From Hymenopellis radicata (taxonomy: Eukaryota > Basidiomycota > Agaricomycetes > Agaricales > Physalacriaceae), in NCBI GenBank assembly GCA_015501595.1, contig JADNRX010000145.1, forward strand, positions 61,078 through 125,077: a stretch of DNA of 64,000 bases, read 5' to 3'. Made by a program: the position numbers and the translations under genes. This document shows, piece by piece, positions 11,567 to 62,394 of this stretch (positions are counted from its first letter, which is position 1; the number at the start of each line of letters is the position of its first letter). Below the pieces are notes generated by a model. That model saw nothing but the letters and a program-made list of their open reading frames with translations. It ran no database searches and had not been told where the DNA came from.

Positions 11567-12217
11567 GGTGTCATGGAGAAGTGGTACTTTTTTTGACTGG
11601 GAATGTAGAGTGCACAGACTTTCCACCATGAGGTATCGGTTTTGCTGGACATGATGCGAATGAGCAAGGTGTGAAGGTTCAAGCAATAGTTGCTCCACTA
11701 CAAATCAGACTACATAAGCAACACAATGTGATGTCTACTCACCGAGCCGTACTTTTCTTGCTGTGAAAGTATCCGATGCCCCTCCTCTCTTGCAGCACCA
11801 CCTACAGTCTCAGCAAGTACAGCTATTGCATCCCGACTCCGGTCTCCAACTTTCTTCACTGCATCAAACCATTGGTCATAGTCAATCCTGGAAATCCATT
11901 CACTGGTCCTCGAATCCCCGACGAGATCTTGCACGTCACTAATCATCACTGTGAGAGGTTCATACCATGACACAAATGCCGGTGACATACCTTGCCTGGA
12001 CGTGCTCCCATTGCCTTGCCTGGACGGGATCCCTTTCCGAATCAATTATGTATTGAAGGATAAGCTCCTCATCCTCCGCCATGCGCTCCTCATCTTCATA
12101 GGACCCGCAACTCTGGTAGTCAGATTCGGCATCTTCATCAGAGACTTCGTCATCAGATACGTCCCGCGTCGTAGAGTGGGCATCCGTGGAGGAGCTGTCG
12201 TGGCCAGAGGCGGGCAT
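11567..12217 (-). pseudogene. H1: truncated copy of the H gene (partner of F-A)
   Basis: The start MPASGHDSSSTDAHSTTRD and the acidic segment DEVSDEDAESDYQSCGSYED match the family. Exon 1 is 12217-11991, exon 2 is 11938-11743 (ending QQEKYGS) and exon 3 begins at 11673 with TLLIRIMSSK. The acceptor before exon 3 is changed from CAG to CAC. After KYHFSM (about 11567) homology stops and unrelated sequence next to the KDZ segment follows, so the four-helix core and everything after it are missing. The missing part is not found further left in the window, which means a simple KDZ insertion does not explain the break. It lies downstream of F-A in the same orientation, as in the other modules. Confidence 0.8.
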
Positions 12218-12791
12218 GATGAGGGTAAGAGGAAGCGAAGGAATGCTGTTGATGCCGCACACACGTGAATGATTCCTGTGCTCGGACCGGCGCAGGACTC
12301 ATCGATATTGATAGAGGAAGCTGTTTATGATGGCATCCCGTTCAAGAGGAAGCCGGAGTGTGCAAGATTCCGGAACAGCAGAGCTCAGCCTTCGTAATGC
12401 TGCCGTGATCCTGAGAAGCGACCCAATTGAATCCATAAACAGCGTTGCTGACATTGCGCGGACCACCTTTGTTTTATGGCATACTACAACGTTGTTGGGC
12501 GTGGATGGCGCGCTATAGCGGTGCACCTTGCTCAGAGATGCCTCGTCGAACAGAAATTGGACAGCGGTACACTGGTCATACAAACCTCGCTGAAGAAATG
12601 GTTGCCCAACAAACGAGTAGTTGTCCTCCGCAGACTCTGAATAGTGAACTACGCAGTCGTACATCAGTGATGAAATCAAAACTAATGACAAGCCAAACAA
12701 ACACCCAATATTAAGGTAGTCTCGTAGAACAGACTCCATCCAAGAATGAAAGCAACAAAAGAAGAACGGAAGACCGTATGCTAGATCATCG

Positions 12792-13111
12792 TTACGGCCC
12801 CAGCTTGACCTCCCTCTCGTTCCTCTCCTCATCGCCCACGTCCATCGCCTCCTCCGAACCAGACGCCGATCCCGGGTGCGTGATAAGCGTAAGGCCACCT
12901 ACAGACGCCTCGACGTCCATCGCCTACTCCTCCACATCTGCCTCTGCCTCCTCGTCCCGTATCCGTTCTAGATCAATCTCCGTCCTGCTGCGACGCCTGC
13001 CGAACCTTCACCCTCAACGTCGGTCTGCGTATCGCTCACGGTCTTCAACCTGTACAGTGTACAGGAGCTAGACTGTTCAAATTCTTCAACGCATTCGTAC
13101 TAGCCCGCCCG
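12792..13111 (-). pseudogene. F-A, C-terminal part with the RING deleted
   Basis: Read on the minus strand, about 13102-13040 matches the start of F exon 2 (TNALKNLNSLAPV) and then jumps directly into the acidic tail (EDRERYADRR..., ending at a TAA at 12792-12794). Everything between, including both RING exons, is missing. The tail still aligns with F-B (DVEAS-GGLTLITHPG and the final EREVKLGP). This copy can therefore not make a RING ligase. Confidence 0.8.
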
Positions 13112-13383
13112 CGAGCATGCGGAGGTGTGGGATGAGGCACCGGGGGTTGTTTTAGGACGAGGGACGTTTCTCAACCACGTTAGGTTGAGCCCGGCGGATA
13201 CTGAGAGTAGGGCGAGTGTGTTGCGAGATGGCGATATTGTCCAGCTTGGAGTGGACTATCAAGGTGGGACGGAGGATATTTCTAAGAGTGTCAAGATACG
13301 GGTAGAGGTGGGTCGGGAATGGCAGGGCGGGAAGAACACGTTGAAGTGAGTCAGTTCCTGCAAGGTTTCTACTGCGCTAATGG
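13112..13383 (+). pseudogene. F-A, inverted 272 bp segment (second half of FHA domain)
   Basis: The plus strand here codes for GRGTFLNHVRLSP, SRASVLRDGDIVQLGVDY and KIRVEVGREWQGGKN, the second half of the FHA domain, followed by the start of intron 1. The pieces on both sides of it belong to the same gene on the minus strand. Order is otherwise kept, so this is an inversion in place. Breakpoints are about 13111/13112 and 13383/13384. Confidence 0.8.
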
Positions 13384-13607
13384 ACACTTGTTCATCATAG
13401 TCGATGTTCGACGCTTCGTAAACCACCCAACGCGGACAGCCGCGTCGCCCTCCTTGAGATCGCGCGTGATAGCATTGAAGCGCAAGGCACGGTCCGAGTG
13501 GAGGTGCGGCACGAGCCGTATGCGATGCGTCCCGCCGACACTCACTACGACTGCCGCTGTCGTCGGCACGTTCACGGCGCCCCGCTTTGCCGCCTTTCGA
13601 GCCCGGG
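13384..13607 (-). pseudogene. F-A, first half of FHA domain (between inversion and MULE)
   Basis: Minus-strand reading gives MNVPTTAAVVVSVGGTHRIR, LVPHLHSDRALRFNAITRDL and KEGDAAVRVGWFTKR, matching the beginning of the FHA region of F-B. The conserved Gly-Arg of the first FHA loop (IGR in F-B) reads VGW here. The piece is bounded by the inversion on one side and the 9 bp target duplication of the MULE on the other. Confidence 0.85.
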
Positions 13608-13616
13608 ACTCGGGGT
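13608..13616. repeat. MULE target-site duplication, left copy
   Basis: ACTCGGGGT, identical to 17204-17212. Joining the flanks across one copy restores the reading of F-A around PNNP-SPG, so the duplication marks the insertion point. Confidence 0.92.
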
Positions 13617-13673
13617 ATTATGGGCAATCGCACCCTCCTGGCTAGCGGATTAGATAATCAGTTCCCATGACGT
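13617..13673 (+). repeat. MULE left terminal inverted repeat (57 bp)
   Basis: Matches the reverse complement of 17147-17203 at 56 of 57 positions (T versus C at position 52). Confidence 0.92.
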
Positions 13674-13684
13674 AGTCGGGTTCA

Positions 13685-13760: not shown

Positions 13761-13849
13761 CGTTTTAGGCTTAGTTAATCAATTCCCACGACAAATTGGT
13801 GCCGGAATATGTACTTGTGTGCGTCTATAGACTGCTGTACACTGCCAGT

Positions 13850-17203: not shown

Positions 17204-17212
17204 ACTCGGGGT
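17204..17212. repeat. MULE target-site duplication, right copy
   Basis: ACTCGGGGT, identical to 13608-13616. Confidence 0.92.
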
Positions 17213-17753
17213 TGTTCGGATCAGGGCTGACTTTGCCCTCCCGGCTCTGCCGTCGTCCGCAAGTTTAGAATGGTAGAAGCGCGGGGCGGGAGAGTCCTCG
17301 TGTGTGAGATGCGGCGTGGCGGGATGCAGCGGCGGATCCATCGGTAGTGCTGGGTTAACCGTCAAGGGCGATGTCGGTGCGGTGAGACGGGCGACGTGCG
17401 CGGTGGAGTGGAGGAGTATGGTGAGCGGGAGGGCGACTGCAGAGTCCGTTGGCTGGGACCAACGGAAGCTGGTGTTCCTAGAGTTGCTGGCGCTGGTCTG
17501 ATCTTGGATCCGGCTGTGATGCAAGAAACCGATGCTGCATCACCAGGCGTGCTGCTTCTAGTCTCGACGGACTCGTACGACGGTTGGAGGAACACGTTGA
17601 GTGTGGATTCAAGGCGGGTAAAAGTGTCGTTGAGTTTGTACGAATGCGAGGATCTTGCTGTCCGCCTGGTGTCAGTGGCAGTCGAGTCAGGAAATGATGC
17701 ACCGCACCTCATAGCCATATCAATTCTCTGCTGGTCTCCGTCGCGTGTGTCGC
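17213..17753 (-). pseudogene. F-A, 5' part up to the MULE insertion
   Basis: The minus strand matches the N-terminal low-complexity region of F-B and F-D: the start context GATATGGCTATGAG followed by GTGCGG, the Ser/Pro-rich stretch, then MDPPLHPATPHLTHEDSPAP and the codons before PNNP, where the MULE lies. Small frame differences against F-B indicate decay. Together with 13384-13607, 13112-13383 and 12792-13111 it makes one former gene spread over 5 kb. Confidence 0.8.
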
Positions 17754-21340: not shown

Positions 21341-23028
21341 CTAGTCTACCGGACAAACGGGAGCCTTCACATCCGACCCTCCCTCCAGCTCTTCCTCCTC
21401 CTCGACAGACGCGTCCGGTCCGATTCTACATCCTTCAACCTGCATCAAGACGGTGAGTATCGAGCTGACTGGAAATTTCGGTACCGACCTTCACTAAAAG
21501 TGTACGCAACATGTGGTGGGTCATTTTTTGGCCCTCGCGGAAGTCATCGACACGCGATTCGAGACGCGTCTGCATCCTGCGGAGGTCGTAAAGTAACCCT
21601 GTGGTCGAAATGTCGCTTCGAATCTTCAGGGGTGTTAGGAGGACTAGCTCAGCAACTACGGCGCTCACCTTGAACGCGATTCGCGCGTTGTCGACTCGTA
21701 CACGTAGGTCTTTGACTTCGGCATTGATTTTCCCGCGTGCCGTCAAGTATCTGAGGCGACTAAGTGTCGATAGCCTGGTAATTCTTCGTTCGACTTCGCC
21801 AATGGCTCTATAACTAACATCAGAGATACCAGTGGAGTCCAGTAACAGGGACTTACGCGCATAGGTCAAAGAGACTTGCAGTCGGAATAGCAGGTTCATT
21901 GGAACATGAACCAATCTCGTTGATGATCGCGAGTGTTATGCATACTGTATGCTCGGCGAGGGCTTTGCATTCGTCGCGGGCCGCGCGCGCAACCTATTAC
22001 GAGCAGAGTTAGTGGTCAGCATATACTTCGGAAGGTTACTTGCCTCTGCAGCACTGATAGTCTTCCGCAGGATTCCGCACGCGCCCTCGAGCACAGCTCC
22101 AAACACCGGAACCAGTTTCGCGACACTCTCCGCGATGTCGAGGCATGTGACGATGTTCACCATGTTTGTTGGTCCGAAAATTGATGCTGAATCAGAGGAA
22201 GCGGAGGCGTAGCCCACATTTCGAAGCTTGGACAGCGCGTCATTGCGAGCATTCATCTCCTGTAAGTATGGGAGAGCAATCCGCATGACTTCCGCAAGAT
22301 CCTTCGAAGGTCTGTCTGGTGAAGGATCCAATGACATCCTTCTCCTTCCCTCAAACAAACTGGAGGTGAAGGAGAGGTGGTACATTCTTTGACTGGGAAT
22401 GTAGAGTACATGGGATTCCCACCAACTGTTATCGGACCAAGCTCCTTTGTTGGACATGACGAGAATCAGCAAGGTCTGGAGGGTGTAGAAATAGTTGAAC
22501 CCCTACAAATCAGACTACATAAGTAATCCAATGTGATATATACTCACCCAGCCATGCTTTTCCTGATCTGAATGCATGTCATGCCACCGCTTTCTTGCAG
22601 GTCCACCTACAGTCTCAGCAAGTACAGCCATTGCATCCAGGCCCCTCTCTGCAACTTCCATCAGTGCGTGAAACCGTTGGTCAAGCTCAATTTCCGAAAT
22701 CCATTTTGTACTGGTCATCGAAGCCCCGACTTGAAGATCTCGCACGTCGCTAAGCATCATTGTGAGAGGTTCATACCATGACACAAATGCCGGTAACATG
22801 CCTTGCCTGGATGGGCTCCCATTCACCCGAATCACGTATGTATTCAAGAATCTCAAGCTCCCTATCCACATATTCCTCCGCCGTGCGCTCCTCATCCTCA
22901 TCTGAAATATAGGACTCGCAACTCTGGTAGTCGGATTCGGCATCTTCATCAGGGAAGTCGTCGTCCGATAGGTCCCGCGTCGTAGAGTGGTCATCCGTGG
23001 AGGAGATGTCGTGGGCTGAGGGGGGCAT
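21341..23028 (-). CDS. H2: H-family protein, apparently intact, 456 aa
   Basis: Model (minus): 23028-22802, 22749-22548, 22475-22044, 21993-21857, 21807-21669, 21623-21489, 21439-21341. All phases agree. Introns 1 and 3 use GC donors (GCATGT and GCAAGT). The acidic N-terminus contains STTRD followed by LSDDDFPDEDAES. The core LDIAESVAKLVPVFGAVLEG and ARDECKALAEHTVCITLAII is a pair of long amphipathic helices typical of the N-terminal four-helix domain of fungal MLKL/HeLo-like proteins (inferred). The C-terminus differs from other copies: after the last intron it reads an acidic tail (VEEEEELEGGSDVK) to a TAG at 21341. Skipping that intron would end the protein at 21435. No F gene is found upstream. 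Very similar to H3. Confidence 0.7.
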
Positions 23029-24059
23029 GATGAGGGTAAGAGGAAGCGAAGGAATGCTGTTGATGCCGCACACACGTTAGTGATCCTGTGCTCGGACCGG
23101 CACAGGATTCTTTGACGTTGCTGTATATGATGGAATCCCGTTCAAGACGAAGCCGGAGTGTGCAAGGCTCCGGAACAGCAGAGCTCAGCCTTCGTAATGC
23201 AGGCGTGATCCGGAGAAGCGACCGAATTGTTTGATCAGAGTCTAGAGCTTGTTCCTCCTCAAGGACCTAAAGAAAATCCTTGATTTTGAGAAATCAACAA
23301 GCATCTACACAGACCTTAACATCGACGTCCTCCTTAGCAACGGTTGAATGCATTTGTAGTGGGTGTGCGAGCACGGCACAATGAACAGCGCTTCCCGTAT
23401 TGAGACAGCCAATAGACATCGTGGTTGACAAGGAGACGAGCAAACGAGGTGAGTCCACGTCGAGTCCAGGCAGAATTCACGTCGAGTATCGAATTGTAGG
23501 CCATCAGTTCATTGAGATCCGAGGCGTAGCCTAGTAGCGTCGTCCAAGCGGTAGGAATCAGAGTTCTAGTAGTCCACAGCCCATACCTGCTCAATTTGTC
23601 GAGAAATAGGTCGGACTGTTGGAAAGAAAGAGATGCCGAGGTACAGTAGTAGCAAAGGTGCGTATTGAACTTCCAGACAAGGTACCAGCATCGTCGCTCA
23701 CCCCGCAAGATATTCGTCAAGATAAGGACACGTCATAACCAAGAGCCGTTCATTCGTCGAGAATCGCGTTCGGATTTTTCCCAGAGAAGAAAGCGACGCC
23801 AGAGAAGACTATTGATGACGGACAGTCCGAGGTGCGTGTTTGTGGTAGGCATGATTCCAAACGAGACGACGAAATTGGCACCTACAGACACCCATCACCG
23901 TCCGAAGGAGCCGATTTTCCAAGGAGACAGGGATCAATGCAGGAAGTAAATGAGAAGAGGCAGGAAGACCTCGATCACAGCTTAATCCAAATCCGGTAAG
24001 TTGACTCTTACCTTGTTACCGTCACCTCCTTGATTCTTGAATCTGATTCTTCGCGTCAG
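23029..24059. other. H2 upstream block, then sequence without a recognised gene
   Basis: 23029-23230 is the conserved H upstream block in minus orientation, including the CCTGTGC...GCACAGG hairpin. Beyond 23230 homology stops. About 24005-24065 is a reverse copy of repeat R3 (see 40745-41540). No gene is supported. Confidence 0.5.
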
Positions 24060-25622: not shown

Positions 25623-27265
25623 TCAGTCTGTTTCCTCGACATACGTGTCTCCAGCTCTACGTCCTCGAGCCTGCATCAAGACGGTGAGTATCGAGCTGAC
25701 TGGAGAAATGGGGACCGACCTCCGCCAGAAGCGCATGCAACATGTGGTGTGTCATCTGCTGACCCATGTAGATATCCTCAACACGCGATGCGAGATGTGT
25801 CTGCATCATCCGGAGGTCGTACAGTAACCCGGTGGTCGATATGTCGCTTCTGATCTTCATGGGGGTTAGGGAGGACTAGCCACTAACTACGACGCTCACC
25901 TTGAACGTGATTCGCGCGTTGTCGACTCGTACACGTAGGTCTTTGACTTCGGCGTTGATTTTCCCGCGTGCCGTCAAGTATTTGAAGCGGCCAAGTGTCG
26001 ATAGTCTGGTAATTCTTCGTTCGACTTCGCCAATCGTTCTATAACTAACATCAGAGATACCAGTTGAGTCCAGTAACAGGGACTTACGCGCATAGGTCGA
26101 AGAGACTTGCAGTCGGAATAGCAGGTTCATTGGAGCTTGAACCAATCTCGTTGATGATCGCGAGTGTTATACACGCCGTATGTTCGGCGAGAGCCTTGCA
26201 TTCGTCGCGGGCTGCGCGCGCAACCTATCGCAAACGAAATTAAATAACGGTAGCAAGCATACTTCGGAAAGGTTACTTGCCTCTGCAGCGTTGATAGCCT
26301 TCCGCAGGATTCCACACGCACCCTCGAGCACAGCTCCAAACACCGGAACCAGTTTCGCGACACTCTCCGCGATGTCGAGGCATGTGACGATGTTCGCCAT
26401 GTTCGTTGGTCCAAAGATTGATGGCGAATCAGGGGAGGAGGAGGAGTAGCCCACATTCCGAAGCTTGGACAGAGCGTCATTGCGAGCATTCATCTCCCGG
26501 AAGTATGGAAGAGCAATCCGCATGACTTCCGCAAGATCCTTCGAAGGTCTGTCTGGTGAAGGATCCAATGACATCCTTCTCCTTCCCTCAAACAAACTGG
26601 AGGTGAAGGAGAGGTGGTACATTCTTTGACTGGGAATGTAGAGTACATGGGATTCCCACCAACTGTTATCGGACCAAGCTCCTTTGTTGGACATGACGAG
26701 AATCAGCAAGGTCTGGAGGGTGTAGAAATAGTTGAACCCCTACAAATCAGACTACATAAGTAATCCAATGTGATATATACTCACCCAGCCATGCTTTTCC
26801 TGATCTGAATGCATGTCATGCCACCGCTTTCTTGCAGGTCCACCTACAGTCTCAGCAAGTACAGCCATTGCATCCAGGCCCCTCTCTGCAACTTCCATCA
26901 GTGCGTGAAACTGTTGGTCAAGCTCAATTTCCGAAATCCATTTTGTACTGGTCATCGAAGCCCCGACTTGAAGATCTCGCACGTCGCTAAGCATCATCGT
27001 GAGAGGTTCATACCATGACGCAAATGCCGCTAACATGCCTTGCCTGGATGGGCTCCCATTTACCCGAATCACGTATGTATTCAAGAATCTCAAGCTCCCC
27101 GTCCACATCATCCTCCGCCGTGTGCTCCTCATCTTCACCTGAAATGTAGGATGCGCAACTCTGGTAGTCGGAGTCGGCATCTTCATCAGAGAAGTCGTCG
27201 TCAGATATATCCGGAGCCGTAGAGCAGTTGTCCGTGGAGGAGCTGTCGTGGGCAGAGGCGGGCAT
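25623..27265 (-). CDS. H3: H-family protein, apparently intact, 439 aa
   Basis: Model (minus): 27265-27039, 26986-26785, 26712-26281, 26224-26088, 26038-25900, 25854-25720, 25670-25623. Phases agree; introns 1 and 3 have GC donors. N-terminus MPASAHDSSSTDNCSTAPD keeps T-x-x-D although the neighbouring residues differ from other copies. The core (LDIAESVAKLVPVFGAVLEG, ARDECKALAEHTACI) and the later helices (VERRITRLSTLGRFKYL, KDLRVRVDNARITFK) are well conserved. The last exon ends GRRAGDTYVEETD. Over exons 2-3 and the introns between them it is almost identical to H2, which points to recent duplication or gene conversion. No F gene stands upstream; the sequence breaks into unrelated DNA at about 27470. 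Confidence 0.75.
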
Positions 27266-31116: not shown

Positions 31117-32747
31117 ATGCCCGCCTCTGCCCACGACAGCTCCTCCACGGATGACCGCTCTACGACGCGGGATGTATCTGACGACGACTTCTCTGATGAA
31201 GATGCCGATGCCGACTACCAGAGTTGCGGGTCGTCCATGTCAGATGAAGACGAGGCGCGCACGGCGGAGGATCGTGTGGATGGGGAGCTTGAGATTCTTG
31301 CCTACATGGGTGATGGTAAATGGGAGCCTATTCAAGTAAGGTATGTCACCGGCATTTGCGTCATGGTATGAACCTCTCACAGTGATGATTAGCGACGTGC
31401 AAGATCGTGTCGGGGCTTCGATGACACGCACAGAATGGATTTCGGAAATTGAGCTTGACCAACGGTTTGATGCACTGATGGACAGCCAAGAGAGGTGCCT
31501 GGATGCAACAGCTGTACTTGCCGAGACTGTAGGTGGACCTGCAAGAGTGTGGTGGTATCAGATACTTACAGACCAGGAAAGGCGTGACTCGGTGAGTATA
31601 TATCACATTAGGTTGCTTATGTAGTCTGATTTGTAGAGGGCCAACTATTTCTTCGAACTTCAGGCCTTGCTCAATCTCATCATGTCCAGCAAAGGAGCCT
31701 GGTCCTATAGCTATTGGTGGCAATTCCACATACTCTGCATGCCCACTCGAGGAATATGCCACTACTCCTTGACCTCCAGCTGCTTTGAGGGAAGGATGCT
31801 GCTTGATTATGCACTGGACAGACCTTCGAAGGATTTTGCGGACGTCATGCGGATTACCCTCCCGTACTTTCGGGAGATGAATGCTCGCATCGATGCACTG
31901 TCCAAGCTTTGGCATGTGGGCTACTCCTCCTCTTCCTCTGATTCAGCATCGATGTTTGGACCAACGAACATGGCGAACCTCATCACAGGCCTCGACATCG
32001 CGGAGAGTGTCGCGAAACTGGTTCCGGTGTTTGGAGCCGTGCTCGAGGGTGCGTGTGGAATCCTGCGGAAGACTATCAACGCTGCAGAGGCAAGTAACCT
32101 TCCGAAGTATATGCCGAGTCACCACTAATTCTGCTCGTCATAGGTTGCGCGCGCAGCCCGTGACGAGTGCAAGGCTCTCGCCGAACATACAGCATGTATA
32201 ACACTTGCCATCATCAACGAGATTGGTTCAAGTTCCACTGAACCTGCTATTCCCGCTGCGAATATATTTGACCTATGCGTGTAAGTCCCCGTTACTAGAC
32301 TCAACTGGTATTCTGATGTTAGTTGTAGAACCATTGGCGAAGTCGAACGAAGAATTACCAGGCTATCGACACTTAGTCGCCTCAGATACTTGACAGCACG
32401 CGGGAAAATTAATGCCGAAGTCAAAGACCTACGTGCGCGAGTCGACAATGCACGAATCACGTTCAAGGTGAGTGTCGTACTTTCTGAGCTAGTCCTCCCT
32501 AACCCCCATGAAGATAAGAAGCGACATTTCGACAACAGGCTTACTGTACGACCTCCGCAGGATGCAGACGCGTCTTGAATCGCGTGTTGATGAGCTCTGC
32601 GAGGGCCAAAAGACGACACACCACATGTTGCGCACGATTTTGGTGGAGGTCGGTACCGATCTCTCTGGTCATCTCCGTACTCACGCAGTGTTGATGCAGG
32701 TTCGAGGACGTAGAACCGGAGATGCGTATATTGACGAGGCGGACTGA
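31117..32747 (+). CDS. H4: H-family protein, intact, 452 aa (partner of F-B)
   Basis: Model: exons 31117-31340, 31393-31591, 31664-32089, 32144-32280, 32329-32467 and 32514-32747; phases agree at every junction. Intron 1 has GTATGT, intron 3 a GC donor (GCAAGT...TAG). Residues 1-75 are acidic and Ser-rich (SSTDDRSTTRD, DDDFSDEDADADYQSC). Residues ~76-140 hold VGASMTRTEWISEIELDQRF and AVLAETVGGPARVWW. Residues ~210-330 carry the helical core LDIAESVAKLVPVFGAVLEG / ARDECKALAEHTACITLAII, like the N-terminal four-helix domain of fungal MLKL/HeLo-like proteins, which can act in membrane permeabilisation and cell death. No kinase, NACHT or other effector domain follows; the end is RGRRTGDAYIDEAD. 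The four-helix assignment is an inference from pattern. It lies 568 bp after F-B, the one pair in which both genes are intact. Confidence 0.8.
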
Positions 32748-37565: not shown

Positions 37566-38030
37566 CGGTACAAGCTATATCTGTTTTTCCTTTTGTTGCT
37601 TTCATTGTTGGATGGAGTCTATTCTACGAGACTACTATAATATCGGGTCTTTGTTTTGCTTGTAATTAGTTTTGATTTGATGACTGATATATGACTGACA
37701 GCGGCAGTAGTCGTTACGAAGAGAGTAGTTCACCGTCTAGAGTCTGTGGACATTTTTACAGCGGTATAAAACAAACATACACTGATAATGCAATGTCAGA
37801 AACGCTGATTATATTTTTGAATTGGGTTGCTTCTCCGGATAACGCCAGCATTACGAAGGCTGAGCTCTGCTGTTCCGGAGTCTTGCACACTCCGGCTTCG
37901 TCTTGAACGGGATGCCATCATAAACAGCTTCTTCTATCAATATCGATGAATCCTGTGCCGGTCCGAGCACAGGAATCATTAACGTGTGTACGGCATCAAC
38001 AGCATTCCTTTGCTGCGTCTTACCCTCATC

Positions 38031-39622: not shown

Positions 39623-40129
39623 GGAGAGGGGAGTGAAGGGCTTTTGTTTTCTATAGACTAATCCGAGTCGCCGTCGATCCACTGGTTTGTAGTGTAAGGG
39701 TTTAAGCAATATGACATCAACATTTCCTCGTTTGAGAAGATATCTCAACGCGGGTGTCTACTACCAGTGTATGGAGTTGAGAGGAAACAAAGATGTGGGA
39801 TATCAGCTGTCGTGGAGCTCCCGACTTGATCTCACGACGTCTTGAACAAGGGTGTTAGTACGAGTCAAAGCCGCCAAGCTTCAAAAACTCACCAAAGCCC
39901 CAGAATCCAAGCAAGGCTGCTCATATTTTATACCGACCTTGAGCGGAACCGAAGCCATCCAGACATGGGCAAGTATAGGGCCCATATACCGTCCGCCTTC
40001 CCGTTACTCATCCCGCCGCGACCTGACATGGAGCCCATCGGCCCAGGGTCGGTAAGACCCAACTGCATCAGATCCAAATCGGCATCAGCGGATGCCGTTA
40101 GCCGAAGACAGGATGGTCTAGTATGGGTC
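39623..40129. other. H5 3' flank; no gene seen
   Basis: Contains the common H 3' flank (GATCCACTGGTTTGTAG) and then unassigned sequence bordering decayed gene X copy 3. Confidence 0.45.
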
Positions 40130-42837: not shown

Positions 42838-44060
42838 GATGGAGACCAGTGGAGCATTGATATGGCCATGAGGTACGGTGCATTGTATTCTGATTTGATT
42901 TGCACTAACACCCGGCAGTCCGTCAATGACTTGTCCAAACCTCCACTCAGTCAGCGACCCCTCAACCTTCTCGACTCCCCACCCAGCATGCTCCTTCAAC
43001 CACCCCCCACACTCAGAGGGCAATGTGCTCCCCCACGCAGCCACTGCCCTCGCCTCTGCTGCGGATAGGAGGATGCTCGCGTCATACAAGGCACGCTCAA
43101 CCCCCCGCACCTAGACATGTCCTTCCTCAACGCCGCCCACCACCCTCACCTCTACTCAGGCGGATGTCCCACACCAGCACACCCCCTTCCACCTCAGTGA
43201 GCTACCCAACACCTCCCTCTTCACCACCACGTGGACGCACTCTCCGTCCTCCTCGTATGAAGAAACGCGGCAGAGTCTCCAGCATGGGCGCGTTGGATTT
43301 GAGATTCAAGAAGGACCAGCAATTTCAGGAGCACCGGCTTGTGTTGATCCCAGCAAGACGACGAACACCCAGCGGGCTCTGCAGCCGCCCTCCCGCTCAC
43401 CATACTCCTCCACTCCTCCGCGCACGTCGCACATCTCGCCTCACCGACATCGCCCTTGATCGTCGCTCCTACACTCTCGATGGATCCGCCGCTGCATCTC
43501 GCCGCGCCGCATCTCACGCCCCCCCCCTAATTCTACAATCCTAAACTTGCGAACAACGGCAGTGCCAGGAGCGCAAAGTCGGCCCCGACTCGAACAACCC
43601 GCCAAGTCCGGGCCTCGAAGGCGGCCGCGGAATCATGAGCATGCTTAGGAGGCGGCGTAGGCGGGGGCGCCATGAACGTGCCGACAACACCGGCAATCGT
43701 AGTGTCGGCGCGTCGCATCGCATACGGCTCGTGCCGCAATTCGACTCGCGCCGTGCGCTGCAGTTCGATGCTATCACGCGATAGCCAGGAGGGCGACGTG
43801 GTGAGCAGGAGGAAGAAGCTCCAGACTCTGACGCAGACTGCGAAAGGCAGGAAAGGAGAAGCAATGGCAGGAAGAAGGGACCGAGGTTGAGGGTGAAGGT
43901 TCTACAGGTCGGCGTCGCAGCAGGATGGAGATTCATACAGGACGATGAGACATACGTGGAGAAGCAGGCGATGGACATTAAGGCGCCTGTAGGTGGCCCT
44001 ACGATTATCACGCAGGGGTCAGTGTCTGAGTGGGAGGATGCGATTGACGTGGGCAATGAA
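42838..44060 (+). pseudogene. F-D: decayed FHA-RING ligase with FHA half and RING deleted (partner of H6)
   Basis: The leader GATGGAGACCAGTGGAGCAT and GATATGGCCATGAG|GTACGG...GGCAG|TCCGTCAATG show the old first intron. The Ser/Pro-rich region is open for 173 codons to LILQS. A first FHA part follows out of frame (SVGASHRIRLVPQFDSRR-like, about 43700-43780). At about 43800 the sequence jumps from the codons for EGDV into the acidic tail (EEEAPDSDAD), so the rest of the FHA domain and both RING exons are gone. The tail ends near 44060. Confidence 0.8.
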
Positions 44061-44539: not shown

Positions 44540-46193
44540 ATGCCCGCCTCTGTCCACGACAGCTCCTCCACGGATGACCGCTCTACGACGCGGGACCTAT
44601 CGGACGACGACTTTCCTGATGAAGATGCCGAATCCGACTACCAGAGTTGCGGGTCCTACATTTCAGATGAAGATGAGGAGCACACGGCGGAGGAATATGT
44701 GGATGGGGAGGTTGAGATTTTTCAGTACATGGAAAATCTAGAGAAATGGGAGCCCATTCAAGCAAGGTATGTCACCGGCATTCGCGTCTTTGTAGGAACC
44801 TCTCACAATGATGCTTAGCGACGTGCGAGATCTCGTCGGGGATTCGAGGACCAGTATTGAAGGGATTTCGAGGATTGAGTATGTCCAATGGTTTGATGCA
44901 CTGGTGGACAGTAAAGACCGGTTCCTGGATGCAATAGCTGTACTTGCTGAGACTGTAGGCGGACCTGCAAAAGTGCAGTGGCGTAATATCCTTTTATATC
45001 GGAAAAATCGTGGTGCGGTGAGTATATATCACATTGGGTTGCTTACGTAGGCTGATTTGTAGGAGAACACCTATTTCTTCCTCCTTCAGATCTTGCTCAA
45101 TCTCATCATGTTCGGCAAAGGAGCTTGGAGCGATAACTACTGGTTAAAATTCCATGCAGTCTACATTACCAGTCAAAGAATGTACCACCTCTCCTTCACC
45201 TCCAGTTTGTTTCAGGGAAGGATTCAGCTTGATTGGTCGCCGGACAGACCTTGGAAGGATCTTGCGCAAGTTATGCAGATTGCCCTACCTTACTTCCGGC
45301 AGATGAATGCCCGCATCGACGCGCTCTCCAAGCTTCGGAATGTGGGCTACTCCTCCGATTCCTCTGATTCACCATCGATTTTCGGACCAACAAGCATCGC
45401 GAGCCTCGTCACATGCCTCGACATCGCGGAGAGCGTCGCGAAACTGGTTCCGGTGTTTGGAGCCGTGCTCGAGGGTGTGTGTGGTATCCTTCGGAAGACA
45501 GTCCAAGCCGCAGAGGCAAGTTGCCTTCCGAAGCATATGTGGACTGTTAATTTAATTTGCAACAGGTTGCGCGTGCAGCGCGCGACGAGTGCAAGGCTCT
45601 CGCTGAACATACGGCCTGTATAACACTTGCTATCATCAACGAGATTGGTTCGACATCCAATGAACCTGCGATTTCGAATGCGAATATCTTTGATCTATGC
45701 GTGTAAGTCCCCGTTACTAGACTCAACTGGTATTCTGATGTTAATTGTAGAACCATCGGCGACGTTGAACGAAGAATTACCAAGCTATCGACATATGGGC
45801 GCTTCAAGTACGTTATCGCCCGCGGGAAAATCAACGCCGAAGTCAGGGACCTACGTGTGCGAGTCGACAACGCGCGAATCGCGTTCAAGGTGAGCGTCGT
45901 TGACTCGTAGTTGCTGAAGTAGTCCTCCTGACACCCCTGAAGATTAGAAGTGACATTACAGCAGCGGGGTTACTGTACGACCTCCGCAGGATGCAGACGC
46001 GTCTCGAATCGCGTGTTGAGGATATCTACGTGGGTCAGAAGGCTACACACAACATGTTGCGTACGATTTTGGTGGAGGTCGGTACCGATCTCGATTCTCT
46101 CCAGTCAGCTCGATACTCACCGTCTTGATGCAGGTCAGAGGACGGAGAACCGGAGATGCGTATATCGATGAGGCAGAGCAGGGGAGGATGTGA
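44540..46193 (+). CDS. H6: H-family protein, apparently intact, 440 aa (partner of F-D)
   Basis: Model: exons 44540-44766, 44819-45017, 45090-45515, 45566-45702, 45751-45889, 45943-46077 and 46134-46193; phases agree. Intron 1 GTATGT, intron 3 GCAAGT. N-terminus MPASVHDSSSTDDRSTTRDL keeps T-x-x-D. Core LDIAESVAKLVPVFGAVLEG with a Val for Ala change after it (GVCGILRK). The last exon (RGRRTGDAYIDEAEQGRM) is reached only by removing a 56 bp intron that starts GTCGGT; without this splice the protein stops at SARYSPS soon after exon 6. The same choice exists in H2, H3 and H7. Confidence 0.72.
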
Positions 46194-49106: not shown

Positions 49107-49731
49107 GGTACAAGTTTCCAAGTCAGGTAGTCGAATGTACCAGATTGCTGTCTTTGTGCGTACTTTCTCTTCCCTCGATGTTATCTATTAACCGCTTCTT
49201 CAGGCCTGTTCGCCGTCTCTATACGGCAAGCGCTTTTCATCGCGCCTTGCTCCCACACATTCCACGACAAATGCATTCGGCCGTTGCTAGGGAACCACCA
49301 TCCTGCGTTTACTTGTCCGCTGTGCCGAACGTTTTCAGACCTTGAGGAGGACGTCGAGGTAGGCCTCTATGCTCTTTGAATATTCTCAAAAGCTGAACAT
49401 TTCTATCAGGTGAGGAAGAAGCTCTAGACTCCGACGCAGACGACGAGACCTACAGGCCCGCTGTGCTTTCAACGGCAGCAAAGAATAAGCGACGTCAGGA
49501 ATACCGTGAGCGAGACGCAGGGGCAGAGTCCGCGGTTGAAGTTGAGGGTGTGCGGGTCGGCGTCGCAGCAGGCATGGAAAGGGAGGCGGCAGACACGGAC
49601 ACGGACACGGAGGAGCTGGCGATAGATATCACGCACCCCCGAGTTCACATCTGGTTTGGAGGAGGCGATACACGTGGCTGATGAAGAGAGAGTGCTGAAT
49701 GTGAACGAGATGGAGGTCAAGCGATTTGTGC
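49107..49731 (+). pseudogene. F-E: 5'-truncated FHA-RING ligase with an intact RING (partner of H7)
   Basis: Starts within F exon 2 (VQVSKSG-like) with the N-terminus and FHA domain absent. The exon 2/exon 3 splice signals are kept (T|GTGCGT...TTCAG|GC), and joining gives DCCLC then LFAVSIRQALFIAPCSHTFH and DKCIRPLLGNHHPAFTCPLC, a complete RING-H2. Exon 4 has lost a few bases and drifts: it is open to GGGDTRG at 49681 in one frame while the original end (DEERVLNVNEMEVK) lies in another. With the zinc-finger promoter in front, this could be transcribed as a RING-only protein. Confidence 0.8.
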
Positions 49732-50130
49732 CTGAAGAAGGTGTTTCACTGTGGCACTTGCGCCGCTGTCAACTATTACGTTCATACGGCCTCGGTGGCG
49801 AAGGTTGTCCAATAAACTCGTTGTTCGCTGTCCTCGATGACCCTGGATACAAACTACACAGTCTTGCCCTCTTCCTAGAAATCCACTACTGCCGTTTTCA
49901 ATGCGAGGCGTCATACGTCCACAGATAATGCAATGTCGGAAATACTGTTTATGTTCTCAATTGGGTTGCTTCTCCGACGCCAGCATTACGAAGTGGCGCA
50001 CTTACCGGATTCATCATGGACGGGATGCCATCACATACAGCAATGTCAATGAATCCTGTGCCGGTCCGAGCACTGGATACGTGGATGATCCGGCGTCAAA
50101 TGCATTCCTTCGCTGCCTCTTACCCTCATC

Positions 50131-51744
50131 ATGCCCGCCCATGATATCTCCGCCACGGATGACCGCTCGACGGCTCGGGATGTATCTGACGACGACCGCC
50201 CTGATGAAGATGCTGAATCCGACTACCAGAGTTGCGGGTCCAACATTTCAGATGAAGAGGAGGAGCGCCCGGACGATCGTGTGGATGAGGAGCTTGAGAT
50301 TCTTCGCTTCAATCAGGGTACATGGGAGCCCTTCCAGGCAAGGCATGTCACCGCCATTTGCGTCACAGTGGTATGAACCTCTCACAATGATGCTTAGCGA
50401 CGTGCAATATCGTGTCGGGGCTTCAATGACCAGTACAGAATGGATTTCGCTAATTGAGTCCAAGGAGCGGTCTGACGCACTCCAGGAGAGGAAAGAGATG
50501 TGCCTGGATGCAGTGTCTGTACTTGCCGAGACTGTACATGGAAGAGAGGAGTGGCGTCCAATACTTGCAAATCGCTCGGTGAGTATATATCATGTCGGGT
50601 TGCTTGTGTAGTCTCATTTGTAGAGGGGCAACTATTTCTTCGACCTTCAGGTCTTGGTCGTTCTCTTCAGCCAGGGACCTTGGACAGACATACGGGGGTT
50701 GGAATTCCGTATACTCCGCATTCCCAGTCAAGAAATGATTCAATACTCCTTCACCTCCAGGTTGTTTCCAGGAAGAATTTACTTTGATTGGTCGCTGGAT
50801 AGACCTTCAAAGGATCTTGCGGAAGTCATGCGGATTGCCCTCCCGTACTTCAGGGAGATGAACGATCGCAACGATGCACTGTCCAAACTTCGCAGTGTGG
50901 GCTACTCCTCCTCTTCCTCCGATTCGCCATCGATTTTTGGACCAACAAACATGGCGAACATCGTCACATGCCTTGACATCGGGGAGAGTGTCGCGAAACT
51001 GGTTCCGGTGTTTGGACCTGTGCTCGAGGGCGCGTGTGGAATCCTGCGGAAGACTATCAACGCTGCAGAGGCAAGTAACCTTCCGAAGTATATACTTACC
51101 GCTAATCTGACTTGCAATAGGTTGCACGTGCAGCCCGCGACGAGTGCAAGGCTCTCGCTGAACATACAGCCTGTATAACACTTGCTATCATCAACGAGAT
51201 TGGTTCGACATCCAATGAACCTGCGATTTCGAATGCGAATATCTTCGACCTCTGCGTGTAAGTCCCCGTTACTAGACTCAACTGGTAGTATGTCTGATGT
51301 TCCTCATAGAACGATTGGTGAGGTCGAACGAAGAATTCAAGGTCTATCAAGACTTGGTCGCTTCAAATACTTGACGACGCGGGGGAAAATCGGTGATGAA
51401 GTCAAAGACCTACGTGTCCGAGTCGACAATGCGCGAATCGCGTTCAACGTGAGCGTCGTAGTAGTTGCTGAAATAGTCCTCCTAACAGCCCCGAAGATTA
51501 GAAGCGACATTACAACGGCGGGGTTACTGTACGACCTCCGCAGGATGCAGACGCGTCTCGAGTCGCGTGTTGAGGATATCTACGTGGGTCAGAAGGCTAC
51601 ACACAACATGTTGCGGACGATTCTGGTGGAGGTCGGTCGGTACCCATCTCTCCAGTCAACTCGATACTCACTTTCTTGACGCAGGTTCAAGGACGTAGAA
51701 CCGGAGACGCGTATATTGATGAGACAGAGGAGGGGCCGATGTGA
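50131..51744 (+). CDS. H7: H-family protein, apparently intact, 427 aa (partner of F-E)
   Basis: Model: exons 50131-50342, 50398-50578, 50651-51070, 51121-51257, 51310-51448, 51497-51631 and 51685-51744; phases agree. Introns 1 and 3 have GC donors (GCATGT, GCAAGT). The N-terminus is shorter (MPAHDISATDDRSTARD) but keeps T-x-x-D. Exon 2 is 18 bp shorter than in the relatives. The core LDIGESVAKLVPVFGPVLEG has Ala to Gly and Ala to Pro changes. The end is RGRRTGDAYIDETE-like (QGRRTGDAYIDETEEGPM). Intron 5 is also open in frame, so a longer isoform could be made. Confidence 0.72.
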
Positions 51745-54818: not shown

Positions 54819-56364
54819 ATGCCCGCCTCTGCCCACGACAGCTCCTGCACGGATGACCGCTCTACGACGCGGGACGTCTCTCACGACTACTTCTCTGATG
54901 AAGATGCCGATTCCGACTACCAGAGTTGCGAGTCCTACATTTCGAATGAAGATGAGGAGCGCACGGCGGAGGATGAGGAGCTTGAGATTATTCAATGGAT
55001 AAATGGTAAATGGGAGCCCATTCAAGCAAGGTATGTCGCCGCCATTTACATGATGGTGTGAACCTCTCACAATGATGCTTAGCGACATGGAAGATCGTGT
55101 CGGGGCTTCGATGACCAGTAGTGAATGGATTCCGAGTATTGAGTATGAGCAATGGTTTGATGCACGGGTGGAAGGTACAGAGAGGTGCCTGGATGCCATA
55201 GCTGTACTTGCTGAGACTGTAGGTGGACCTGCAAGAGTGTGGTGGCATAACATACTTTCAGAACAGGAAAAGAATGGCCCGGTGAGTATATATCACATTG
55301 GGTTGCTTATGTAGTCTGATTTGTAGAGGTTCAATTATTTCTTGAACCTTCAGGCCTTGGTCTTTCTCATCATGTCCAGCAAAGGAGCCTGGCCCGATAC
55401 CTACTGCTGGAAATTTCATACGCTCTACATTCCCAGTCAAGAAATATGCCACTACTCCTTGACCTCTAGCTTCTTTGAGGGAAGAATTCTGTTCGATTGG
55501 TCTATGGACAGACCTTCGAAGGATCTTGCGGAAGTCATGCGGATTACTACCCTCCCGTACTTTCGGGAGATGAATGCTCGCATTGACGCGCTGTCCAAGC
55601 TTCGGAATGTGGGCTACTCCTCCTCTTCCTCTGATTCAGCATCGATTTTCGGACCAACAAACATGGCGAACCTCATGACATGCCTCGACATTGCGGAGAG
55701 TGTCGCGAAATTGGTTCCGGTTTTTGGAGATGTGCTTGAGGGCGCGTGTGGAATCCTGCGGAAGACGGTGCAGGCTGCAGAAGTGAGTACTGTTCTGTAG
55801 TGCGCACGGCGGTGTCCAACTGATTTCTTTCTAGAACGCTCGAAGCGCTCGCAACGAATGCCGGGCTCTCGCAGAGCACACAGCCACCATCACGCTTGCT
55901 ATCTTGAACGAGATTGGACCCGCGTCTACACTCAGCGGTGCTGATATTAACAGAATTTCTGATCTTCGAGAGTAGGTCGAGACATCTCCTCCGTCATTCA
56001 ACGCTAACTCGCTTCAATCACAGAACCATTAAGATTGTGGATTCCAGAGTCCAGAGTCTCTCGAAGCTCGGGCGGCTGAGGTACTTTGCCAGTGCCTCAC
56101 GCGGACGAATCACTGCCGAGGTTATGGAGCTCCGTTCCCGAGTGGACAATGCCCGCATCGCGTTCAACGTGTGCTCGTTACATATTTGATGTGTACCGCT
56201 ACTAATGAGCTTAGTAGATTCGAAGTGATATCTCAACAATGCGATTACTGTACTATTACGACCGTAAGTTCACGTCACACGTCACAAGGCCTCCTTATCT
56301 CTTGATCGGACACCGAAAAACGCCTCTGATCACTTATCGGGTGTGGGAAGCTGAAAAAAATTAA
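54819..56364 (+). CDS. H8: H-family protein, C-terminus replaced by a MITE, 422 aa
   Basis: Model: exons 54819-55030, 55083-55281, 55354-55782, 55835-55971, 56024-56168 and 56218-56364. Intron 3 has an ordinary GTGAGT donor, unlike the GC donors of the other copies. Exons 1-3 are nearly identical to H5; exon 3 has one extra codon and exon 5 two. In exon 6, after MRLL, a 149 bp MITE adds about 35 foreign residues and a TAA at 56362. The displaced original end (MMQTRLASRVDDIYDGQQTT to GHRTGHAYVEEAN, 56414-56602) lies beyond it. The acidic N-terminus with TTRD and the helical core remain, so a shortened protein could still be made. Confidence 0.65.
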
Positions 56365-56396
56365 ATATTTGTGAACATGCGGTCGTAATAGTACAG
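56248..56396. mobile_element. MITE 1 (149 bp) in exon 6 of H8, TA target duplication
   Basis: Ends CTGTACTATTACGACCG and its perfect reverse complement, flanked by TA on both sides (56246-56247 and 56397-56398). Removing the element and one TA gives the H5-like reading CGATTACTAACCGACC. TA duplication and short inverted ends suggest a Tc1/mariner-type non-autonomous element. Confidence 0.9.
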
Positions 56397-56654
56397 TACT
56401 AACCGACCTGAAAATGATGCAGACACGTCTCGCATCGCGTGTGGACGACATCTATGACGGCCAACAGACGACACACCACATGTTGCATACGATTCTGGTG
56501 GAGGTCGGTACTGATCTCACTGGGCAGCTCGATACTCACACAGTCTTGGTGCAGGTTCGAGGACATAGAACCGGACACGCGTATGTCGAGGAGGCAAATT
56601 GAGGACGGGTATGAAGGTCCTGGAGGGTAATACTGTTGATCCACTGGTTTGTTT

Positions 56655-58054: not shown

Positions 58055-59018
58055 GGTTTGTTTGTATGAGTCTGAGCAGGCAACACGTCAGAAGATACAC
58101 CAACGTGAGTGTCTGCTATCCGAGAACACTGTCCCCAGGGTAATGTCCGTCGGTACATCGAAGCGTCGAAGCAGACCATCATACCACACATACCACCGAC
58201 GTCAAGTGGGCCCGCCGTTACCCGCAGGACTACAACGACGGCATAAGCGTCATTCTTGAGCATCACATTGACTCCGACTCGGTGGGAACTGGGGTCTAAA
58301 GGAAACTTTTTAGTACGAAGAAATTGTCCAAATTTGTAAATCTCACCAAACAAGAAACACAACCTCACAGTGGGTTCCGCTCAAATATCGGGTGGCCTTC
58401 CAAATCGCACTCGAAATCCCGACATCCCGTGCCGGGGTGAAGCGGGTGGGCGTATACGCAACGGAGATCATGATACCGGGAAGAGGAGACCAGTAGGCAC
58501 TTGATCATAATGGAGTTCAGTCAAAGCTTGAGATCGTGGTCTAGTAGGTATTTTAGTCGAAGTGTCGCGATACCAGTGGAAGCGCATCTGGCGTGCACAT
58601 CCCAGCTATTGTCGGAGCAGAAGGCGCCGTCTTGGTGTCCATTCGGTAAACAATAAGGGTGACGGCGACGGCGCAACGAGAAGACGGCTAAAGAGAGTTG
58701 AGCGACGTCGACAACACCGTCCATCGATTGAACAGACCGGTTCGCGGACACCTTGCTTTCAACGTCTCAAGGCCTACAAGAAAATTAACTAATTGTTCAA
58801 GAGAACAGAAGAATTCGTACCTCTGTGTACAATCGGATCCGAAGGATTGTCAAGTAGGCTCCAAAATCAGCACCGAGGTCCAGCAAGAAGCGCGACAAAT
58901 TCCTCGCCATCTAGGCAGTGAAAACGAAGCATTCACTTTCGAAGAACCACAAGCAGAGGCAGCAAAAACAATTATATACACAAGAACATCCTGCCACAAA
59001 AAAAGAGATCGCATCGCA
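58055..59018. other. H 3' flank and spacer; no gene seen
   Basis: Begins with the rest of the H8 3' flank (GAGTCTGAGCAGG, AGATACACCAACG). No family sequence follows before the zinc-finger gene. Confidence 0.45.
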
Positions 59019-60264: not shown

Positions 60265-60284
60265 ACGCGCTACGTGTCCGTTGG

Positions 60285-60405
60285 CGATGGAGTCGGAAAA
60301 CGCGAAACAAGGCGACGCGCGAGGGCGGGTTGGTGGTGGCAGGATGACCAGACCCCGGAACCGCTGGACAAATTTTAAACAGCGCGCTTGTCACGTGTAT
60401 AGGTA
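60285..60405 (-). promoter_or_regulatory. C2H2 gene promoter region
   Basis: Contains CACGTG (60392-60397), an AATTTTAAA box and a G/C-rich tract; near-identical to 48985-49106 reversed. Shared retention suggests that this is the functional promoter unit. Confidence 0.6.
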
Positions 60406-61465
60406 CACGCGTTTCCGATCTGTCGCCTATAATGCTGTCTCGTATTTGTATCGGCGTAGCTCCAGGACCAAATGGCTTAGACTAGAACTCACTAGCGTCG
60501 ACACCGCTTCACTCGACTCGATTTCCATCGCACACCCAAAATATCGCTGGGTAGAGATGTGTCATACTACATAAATTCTGGTCTCAAACTTACGCTCACA
60601 AGCTTCTCATCGTTTTGTCGGGGAGGAGGAGCAACTAAAGTGATAGAGTCAGAGGATCGTGCTCGCGGACAGTTGGCGCCAAGGTCTATACCAGTCTTTC
60701 CCACCCTGTTTCCTTTCTACGTTTGCATAAGAAAGCGTGGATTCCAACTATAGGACAGTGCCAGTAACCTTCAAAGACAGTTGTTCAATGAAGGGTGAGA
60801 TTAGGATGGATGGGCACCGGCATGAATTGCTATTGAGGAGCTAAAACACCGCCGAGGATTCCATTCTTGTCGCGCCGTGCACGTCTCTCGCCTGCTCCTT
60901 CCCATATCAGAGAAGTAAGTACCAGCGCGACCTTTGGGGTATATTACGCACCTGACAACGTGGATCAGGGGCCCGAGGAAACACTCCTATCCTAAAGGCA
61001 TTGTTTGACTCTTTAGCTTGTTGAACAGCATAAGAATTGACAGCCTCCAACGCGTTCGCCTGCTAGAAGTATATACCTCCCGCCAGTGGTCAGCGAATCG
61101 TCGAAGCACAGGGCCTTCCCTATACCACGGCACCATCTCCCGCAAATAAATTAAATGAACGCGCGTCTCGTTCGGGGCCTGCACCGAGTCGCGCTCCGCC
61201 GCTCGGCTTTTCTGCATCGCAAGTCGTCGGCTACGTCTCCGTTCACCGACTCGGACCCAGTCATGGCTATAAGAACTGGGACTTAGCCATGATGGCGAGA
61301 GGTGGCGACACATGCTATGTTCGTATATCCTTGACTCGCGCAGGTATCTTGTATCTTCCTCCTGTATTCCTTTCTATGAACTCCACGCACCGAAGTAGCG
61401 TACTATCGATAACTCGACACCCGCATTGGTGTAGCGTCTCCCGGGCCAACAAAGAAATATTGATG
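60406..61465. other. No gene seen
   Basis: Short frames only (for instance 108 codons at 60987-61313, minus). No repeat family or splice structure recognised. Confidence 0.45.
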
Positions 61466-61467
61466 TA

Positions 61468-61720
61468 CTGTACTGTTTCGACCGTAAGTTCATGGGGCGT
61501 GACGCGTTATGCAACGAACTTACAGGAAACAAGTTCGTTTTCAGGCACGGAGCCGCGACTTACCTTATTTGGACGTCCCGCCGTAGGCGGGAGCGAAATT
61601 TTTGCCATTTTGGGTGATATGACCCTGGATTTGAGGTCCGTGATGCGTTATGATTTAAGCTAAGTTCGGTTCTCAGGCCCGCGTGACGCGTTATGCGAAC
61701 TTACGGTCGAAACCATACAG
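61468..61720. mobile_element. MITE 2 (253 bp), TA target duplication
   Basis: Left end CTGTACTGTTTCGACCGTAA, right end the reverse complement of CTGTATGGTTTCGACCGTAA; flanked by TA (61466-61467, 61721-61722). A GACGCGTTATGC block is repeated in opposite orientation inside each end. The ends are related to those of MITE 1. Confidence 0.85.
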
Positions 61721-61803
61721 TATTGCCTGCTCAAACTCTTGCAATATAAACCAGTGGATCAACGGTGATTACCCTCCAGAACCTTCACCCTCCTCAGATT
61801 GCC

Positions 61804-62394
61804 TCACGCGTAGTAGGTTCTTCGTCCTTGAGCCTGCATCAAGACCGTGTGAGTATTGAACTGAGCAGAGAGAGAAATCGGGACCGACCTCCACCAGAAG
61901 CGCATGCAACATGTGGTGTGTCGTCTGCTGACCCATGTAGATATCCTCAACACGCCATGCGAGACGTGTCTGCATCATGCGGAGGTCGTACAGCAACCCT
62001 GTAGTCAAAATGTCGCTTCAAATCTTCAGGGGTGTTAGGGAGGACTAGCTCAGCAAGTACGACACTCACTTTGAACGCGATTCGCGCGTTGTCGACGCGC
62101 GCACGTAGGTCTTTGACTTCAGCATTGATTTTCCCGCGTGCTGTAAAGTATTGGAAGCGGCGAAGTGTCGATAGCCTGGTAATCCTTCGTTCGACCTCGC
62201 CAATGGTGCTATCACTAACATCAGACATACCAGTGGAGTCCAGTAACGGGGACTTACGCGCATAGGTCAAAGATATTCGCATTCAAAATCGCAGGTTCAT
62301 TGGATGTCGAACCAATCTCATTGATGATGGCCAATGTTATACAGGCTGTATGTTCAGCGAGAGCTTTGCACTCGTCGCACGCTGCACGTGCAAC
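61804..62394 (-). pseudogene. H9: 5'-truncated H copy
   Basis: Exons 4-7 of the family are present on the minus strand: CDECKALAEHTACITLAIIN, VERRITRLSTLRRFQYFTAR, KDLRARVDNARIAFK, GLLYDLRMMQTRLAWRV. Homology ends exactly at the acceptor site of exon 4 (TAG at 62397-62395), where MITE 3 begins. Exons 1-3 are not found beyond the MITE, so more than the MITE insertion was involved. The C-terminal reading is degenerate (QGRRTYYA and a stop). Confidence 0.8.

Follow-up and report, generated by a model that had tools for sequence, protein, structure and literature searches.

A mosaic, fast-evolving gene family of Hymenopellis radicata as a candidate for intracellular nonself recognition

A stretch of 64,000 nucleotides from the mushroom Hymenopellis radicata (positions 61,078 to 125,077 of contig JADNRX010000145.1, here called the window) carries an array of two kinds of genes. 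One, H, encodes a protein in which an acidic N-terminus is followed by a middle domain and then by a C-terminal part that is predicted to be helical. The other, F, encodes in its single intact copy an FHA-RING protein of the Dma1 type. The observations described below show H to be a mosaic, fast-evolving family, whose members may be intracellular nonself-recognition switches with an output domain of the type found in NOD-like receptors (NLRs). This is the reading that we prefer, although we hold it tentatively.

The window corresponds to C458:61078-125077 of the 75.5-Mb assembly, C-numbers denoting contigs. A genome of H. radicata was published together with that of Oudemansiella mucida (PMC8480192). 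The copies of H and F in the window were located by tblastn and self-blastn, and the family was then counted in the whole genome, where 148 H matches and two window copies fall into 56 clusters. In our reading, one of these clusters is an inverted piece within another and two are halves of a single split gene, so that the family comprises about 54 loci on 17 contigs. For the study of its evolution 28 copies were extracted. In nineteen of them the phases of exons 1-5 are preserved and the frame runs without a stop to the end of exon 6; these are referred to as intact.

The middle domain of H is under diversifying selection, the behaviour looked for in a recognition part, and the C-terminal domain is under purifying selection. 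The median pairwise ratio of nonsynonymous to synonymous substitution rates (dN/dS) among the 19 intact copies is 0.67 for the acidic N-terminus, 0.85 for the middle domain, 0.21 for the helix in exon 3 and 0.20 for exons 4-6. Within codons 91-195, windows of 30 codons give values from 1.11 to 1.77. The pooled dN/dS of these codons is 1.32 (codon bootstrap 1.02-1.76), a value to be read with the facts that the codons were picked after a scan, that the pooled pairs are related and that all such values are pair counts rather than site models. Seven pairs that share no copy, hand-picked from the middle-domain/class tree, give 1.33 (1.01-1.78), and the ratio is above 1 in every one of them. Codons 236-429 give 0.25-0.28.

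The C-terminal domain comes in two classes, which have been swapped between the N-terminal halves of the protein. In exons 4-6, 17 of the 28 copies belong to class A and 11 to class B, the DNA being 82-94% identical to the reference of its own class and 64-68% identical to that of the other. Among the intact copies (14 A, 5 B), a branch supported at 100/100 separates the classes. They are mixed, in contrast, in the tree of the middle domain: five changes are needed, and a grouping of class B is rejected by the approximately unbiased test (p 1.75e-67, 175 log units). The swapping is seen most directly in pairs of copies. H1 and the copy C513_a have no synonymous change in 177 codons of the middle domain (synonymous rate, dS, 0) and a dS of 1.48 in exons 4-6; C685_g and C685_h present the reverse case, with a nonsynonymous rate (dN) of 0.33 in the middle domain and 0.016 in exons 4-6. 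As proteins of Mucidula stand in both class clades (one in A, three in B), the classes predate the split of Hymenopellis and Mucidula. They are seen as gene copies in two genera, not as known alleles.

Taken together, the diversifying middle, the conserved helical domain and the exchange of modules bear out the proposal of the initial annotation, made from the DNA letters of the window, that H evolves in the manner of a recognition or conflict family. The same annotation described H as MLKL/HeLo-like, and for this the profiles give no direct support. H1 has no Pfam match at E<=1, and 37 members of the family have scattered matches at the level of noise; MLKL_N reaches E 0.15 at best, in one of the 37. 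Neither H1 nor the 37 members contain a NACHT domain by Pfam, and neither repeats nor a NOD were found in H. Sequence searches of the PDB with H profiles gave at first no match and later a single spectrin chain (E 0.42). As to relatives of H, among about 8000 candidates scored (7995 in the profile search), chosen as those sharing most words with the query at 0.55-1.75 times its length, the single-sequence search gave 23 proteins, all named, from Hymenopellis radicata or Mucidula mucida only. The profile search gave 45, of which 43 are named and come from the same two species and two are nameless.

The origin of the helical part can nevertheless be approached through gene structure. N-terminal regions were examined in eight of the 18 NACHT matches of the H. 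radicata genome. The intron between their exons A and B was called in phase 0 in 7/8, that between B and C in phase 2 in 8/8 (one with a phase-1 alternative), and that between C and D in phase 0 in the 4/8 where it could be called. Introns 3-5 of H have phases 0, 2 and 0, and match those of the NACHT N-termini in both position and phase. Exon C of the receptors is 139 nt long in four of the eight loci, which are those with both ends called, and H exon 5 is 139 nt long in all 16 copies that keep all six phases. H exon 4 has 137 nt in these 16 copies; exon B of seven receptors has 125-137 nt. When the sequences of five receptor loci are anchored at the splice sites, offset 0 gives the highest similarity in exon A among the 21 offsets tried (p 0.008 against shuffles). 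These intron positions, phases and exon lengths suggest that the C-terminal domain of H and the N-terminal domain of the NACHT receptors probably share descent. As hhalign failed to connect the two, the link rests on gene structure. A HeLo-like origin of the domain gains indirect support from this shared structure. In Basidiomycota, BaMLKL domains are reported to belong to the superfamily found most often at the N-termini of NLRs, and BaMLKL homologues that stand free of any NLR number in the hundreds (PMC9815663).

By combining these observations, it is possible to outline how an H protein might work. The variable middle domain would bind variable ligands. Binding would release the helical C-terminal domain, which would have descended from a domain at the N-terminus of NACHT receptors. 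The released domain would then damage membranes or recruit an NLR pathway, leading to cell death or arrest in response to nonself or a pathogen.

Several points weigh against this picture. The profiles of HeLo, MLKL_N, Goodbye and all other families failed to match H significantly, and the weak match to MLKL_N mentioned above is at noise level. The conserved helical part lies at residues ~235-429 of 444, behind the acidic and variable regions. The executioner bundles of the HeLo/MLKL type (HET-S, MLKL) stand at the N-terminus, and the helical domain of H is C-terminal. In exon C the splice-anchored similarity has p 0.005 at offset 0, yet offset +3 of the 25 tried is higher, and five of the eight loci entered the comparison. 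The alignment of H with the NACHT N-termini by hhalign gives a probability of 0.2% at E 0.29, in which no relation can be seen, and five NACHT N-termini that were scanned match no HeLo/MLKL family. Two AlphaFold2 models of H have low confidence (predicted template modelling scores 0.31 and 0.30), and with these poor models Foldseek and VIA retrieve no HeLo/MLKL relative, which does not itself show a difference in fold. A search of the genome for the MLKL_N family gave no match, and as it gave none in the controls either, it is uninformative. The limits on the dN/dS values given above belong here as well. In addition, rapid mosaic evolution also fits conflicts of other kinds. Among the titles listed for basidiomycete incompatibility genes with NACHT domains and for Agaricomycete MLKL/HeLo-like clusters, none deals with the H family.

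It might be argued that H is merely an orphan family that has expanded and serves outside immunity, for instance as a regulator or scaffold, that its middle domain is simply relaxed and that its spread is plain hitch-hiking. The absence of a significant domain match, the restriction of the named relatives to two genera and the transposase-like frames near the array all agree with this. A relaxed domain would, however, show a dN/dS near 1, and not above 1 in seven of seven pairs; nor are the maintenance and swapping of two C-terminal classes, or the strong constraint on the C-terminal domain, expected of such a family. We regard this explanation as somewhat unlikely. A selfish element, such as a family of killer meiotic drivers that spreads as variants of killer and antidote, would account for the fast turnover of copies, their mosaic structure and their spread and decay in one lineage. 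It is at odds with C-terminal classes common to two genera and with a C-terminal domain that has long been constrained, and appears very improbable. The reading of H as a family of recognition switches accommodates the diversifying middle together with the old, conserved and exchangeable C-terminal domain.

A further explanation involves F, and its weight depends on what F is and how it is linked to H. The intact copy, F1, has an FHA domain (PF00498, 5.7e-13) followed by a RING-H2 domain (PF17123, 1.2e-11; PF13639, 3.4e-9), which is the order found in Dma, CHFR and RNF8 proteins and agrees with the initial assignment of F as a Dma1/CHFR-like protein. Its FHA+RING core is 78-80% identical to the eight best database relatives. 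The other FHA-RING genes of the genome are more distant from F1 in their FHA domains (C717 67%, C125 62%, C720 60%). F1 is closer than C717 to the Dma1-type proteins of ten other mushrooms, in the FHA domain in 10/10 species and in the RING in 9/10, within a comparison set (the 120 best of 1188 matches to F1) whose choice favours F1. In a tree of F rebuilt on the core, the placement of F1 is weakly supported. By similarity, F1 is best described as the Dma1 gene of H. radicata, with a predicted ligase activity.

The FHA-RING core of F1 is under strong purifying selection. Near-copies of F1 are found on C458, C513 and C685. When their codons are compared in the frame of F1, FHA, linker and RING together (241 codons, one gapped in C513) have 20, 24 and 12 synonymous and no nonsynonymous differences in the three pairs; outside the core, there are 4-6 nonsynonymous codons in the N-terminal 214 codons and 3-4 in the tail. 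The idea that F1 is a guarded protein was set aside, the FHA and RING having undergone no amino-acid change between the near-copies.

The near-copies differ in smaller ways. That on C513 has a deletion of 1 nt after the RING and that on C685 has 4 nt fewer in exon 1, either of which may be an assembly error. Intron 2 of F1 (29909-29954 of the window) differs at 20 of its 46 sites from the copies on C513 and C685, which are identical to each other there, and the RING exon of F1 is also richer in silent changes. Intron 2 and the RING exon are likely to be a conversion tract. The three contigs themselves are either divergent haplotypes or segmental copies. Of two genes used as a check of allelism, Rad9 is a single locus and Rpc82 gave no match; a 4.3-kb flank of C458 is unique in the assembly, and a 3-kb flank of C685 has matches elsewhere of merely 66-81%. 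Colinear blocks (C458:86.6k-93.9k with C685:82.7k-89.8k, and C458:119.8k-121.5k with C685:176k) are 86-94% identical, and their flanks differ.

In the whole genome, 18 H loci on six contigs (six on C458, four each on C513 and C685, two on C651, one each on C829 and C622) have F sequence directly upstream on the same strand, with gaps of 238-594 bp. These were counted by hand, and all F sequences except the three near-copies of F1 were judged from tblastn pieces. The F is complete at one of the 18 loci, and its FHA+RING core is uninterrupted at three. A further 18 H clusters sit on 11 contigs with no F match at E 1e-5, in a search that scored 75 of 91 F candidates and may therefore undercount F. 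Pieces of F without H also exist, for example on C954 and at C685:103.7k. These counts lend no support to a fixed F-H pair, nor to the one-to-one module of ligase and target that was first proposed. Because the additional F copies are mostly relics, most of them are dispensable. The two-gene module appears to be mostly a trace of duplication around a housekeeping-like Dma1, most of the pairs being explained by location and not by selection for keeping the two genes together. In the simplest reading, duplication units that start inside F and end after H would have carried the pieces of F as passengers.

It is still conceivable that F controls H in trans. The FHA domain of F would read phosphothreonine in the acidic N-terminus of H, the RING would ubiquitinate H, and a single F1 would restrain many H proteins. 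Such a role agrees with the intact, strongly conserved FHA and RING of F1 and with the retention of F sequence upstream of 18 H loci. In the N-termini of the 19 intact copies, T11 and D19 are present in 19/19 and T16 in 17/19, and the commonest residue at positions 17 and 18 reaches just 11/19; two copies have an otherwise unlike exon 1. The motif TxxD is an FHA ligand. Another FHA ligand motif is pSpT (PMC4655838), and the FHA domains of Dma1/2 are regarded as the parts that recognise phosphorylated substrates (PMC9010424). The conservation of F1 is, however, accounted for by its being the Dma1 gene, and no link to H is needed. Other N-terminal residues of H are equally conserved, the sites fit CK2 without F, F is complete at a single F-bearing locus and gave no match on 11 H-bearing contigs, and no paper with both Dma1 and HeLo was found in a literature search. 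The acidic N-terminus, rich in Ser and Thr and with a TxxD site, makes trans-regulation of H by F possible, as a lead and not a result; that F does control H is unlikely. A more elaborate proposal combines this brake with the recognition reading. H would be an NLR-independent system of variable cassettes, in which ~54 loci provide interchangeable sensor halves and two old, NLR-derived classes of killer domain, Dma1 would act as the brake through a CK2-type phosphothreonine, and loss of the brake or a nonself ligand would cause cell death at hyphal fusion. As a whole this seems improbable.

The window contains nine copies of H (Table 1), with Hm4 starting near 62400. In five of the nine, F-derived sequence lies directly upstream in the same orientation, at gaps of ~404-581 bp: F1/H1, F2/H2, F3/H3, F4/H4 and, on the minus strand, an F relic with Hm1. 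The order, orientation and spacing of five F-H units, as first annotated, are correct; that the five F are genes is not, since only F1 is intact. Of the four H copies said to have no recognisable F, H5 and Hm3 indeed have none, and Hm2 is preceded by a RING scrap. The copies of the module have intergenic blocks and intron positions in common, as had been noted, and self-blastn reveals duplicated blocks of 1-2 kb with ~70-92% identity, far above chance. Six of the nine H copies (H1-H4, Hm2 and Hm3) run without a stop to the end of exon 6. In H5 this exon is interrupted, and of Hm1 and Hm4 only parts remain. The multiplied copies, the F relics and the truncated H genes support the view that the array expands and decays.

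Table 1. Copies of H and F and their remnants in the window; positions count from its first nucleotide
Feature	Description	Position	Strand	Basis
Hm1	truncated, 5' half of an H copy	11560..12217	-	
F relic upstream of Hm1	scrambled; FHA piece 13107-13337 inverted	12798..13599	-	
Detached F piece	5' piece of an F copy	17204..17554	-	
Hm2	stop-free through exon 6, class A; low end approximate	21393..23028	-	
RING scrap of F	28 codons, before Hm2	23335..23418	-	
Hm3	stop-free through exon 6, class A, without F	25623..27265	-	
F1	intact Dma1-type FHA + RING-H2 gene, 4 exons, 578 residues	28671..30549	+	spliced model, Pfam
H1	intact, 7 exons, 444 residues, C-terminal class A	31117..32747	+	gene model
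F2	relic; DNA for start of RING deleted, stop in remaining RING	36210..37688	+	
H2	stop-free through exon 6, last exon different, class B; represented in the database by P0147, the C-terminal half	38031..39625	+	
F3	relic without FHA and RING	43193..44060	+	
H3	stop-free through exon 6, class A	44540..46193	+	
F4	relic, RING and tail only, without FHA	49129..49721	+	
H4	stop-free through exon 6, class A	50125..51744	+	
H5	class B, without F; exon 6 broken by inverted-repeat insert ~56246-56398	54819..56605	+	
Hm4	truncated, 3' part of an H copy	61816..62418	-	

The splice sites of H are not uniform. Intron 3 (32090-32143 in H1) is of the GC-AG type: its donor is GC in 16 of the 17 copies of class A and GT in 10 of the 11 of class B, and several copies have a GC donor at intron 1. 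Database model P0001 (617 residues; 31117-36500 of the window) joins H1 to sequence farther downstream, and several database models of H begin inside the gene, so that care is needed with the public annotation of the family.

Mobile and repeated sequences are found within and around the array. The element that breaks the frame in the last part of H5 has inverted ends of 28 nt that are 93% complementary. A repeat of ~235 bp (61466-61700) adjoins the truncated Hm4 and has at least 32 further matches of 85-99% on other contigs, with 40 of 396 candidates scored. Two open frames at 8382-10078 match KDZ transposases (1.6e-20 and 2.2e-39) and CxC1, in a region (7000-11300) that has no second copy in the assembly at E 1e-10. 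Open frames at 15228-16808 and at 59022-60020 on the minus strand have weak matches to MULE transposase/SWIM and C2H2 zinc fingers, under the curated cut-offs. The segment ~58732-60457 is repeated at C685:176136-177872 with 94% identity.

H can be compared with several known systems. Like BaMLKL and the other N-terminal domains of NACHT receptors, its C-terminal domain is predicted to be helical and belongs to an agaricomycete expansion, and it has the phases 0/2/0 and the 139-nt exon in common with the receptors. It differs from BaMLKL in having no profile match, in standing behind a variable domain at the C-terminus, and in being accompanied by neither a NACHT domain nor a shown amyloid motif. 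The NACHT N-termini compared here are putative BaMLKL domains at most, and the five that were scanned matched no HeLo/MLKL family. With the HeLo proteins HET-S and HELLF and with animal MLKL, H shares a module predicted to be all-helical and the mode of evolution of a nonself-recognition family, but the bundle is N-terminal there and C-terminal in H, and neither sequence nor fold could be matched. The RPW8/HR genes of plants likewise form a non-NLR cluster with copy-number variation; they act together with NLRs, and their domain has been compared to MLKL/HeLo (PMC6684095). Variation there lies in C-terminal repeats, whereas in H it is the middle domain that varies and the C-terminal half that is exchanged. 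The HNWD NLRs of Podospora resemble H in combining diversifying selection with sequence exchange between family members (PMC4986451). Their variation lies in the WD repeats of NLRs, and H has neither repeats nor a NOD that could be found. As for F1, both domains and the identity of the core make it similar to Dma1/Dma2, CHFR and RNF8, from which it differs in its surroundings, with two near-copies and many H-linked relics.

The F-H array carries a caution, namely that a repeated two-gene order can be the trace of duplication. According to a review, all current models of somatic incompatibility in basidiomycetes rest on work in ascomycetes (PMC8229728). From the comparisons made here, the H family is a strong, if unproven, candidate for a recognition system. 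If its C-terminal domain is indeed derived from NLRs, it would be a domain that left its receptor, came to stand at the C-terminus and was joined there with a variable partner. The H genes keep their diversifying and conserved modules apart, exchange sequence among themselves and have multiplied in a burst within a single lineage, and they would provide concrete candidates for tests on strains of a mushroom that is in cultivation.

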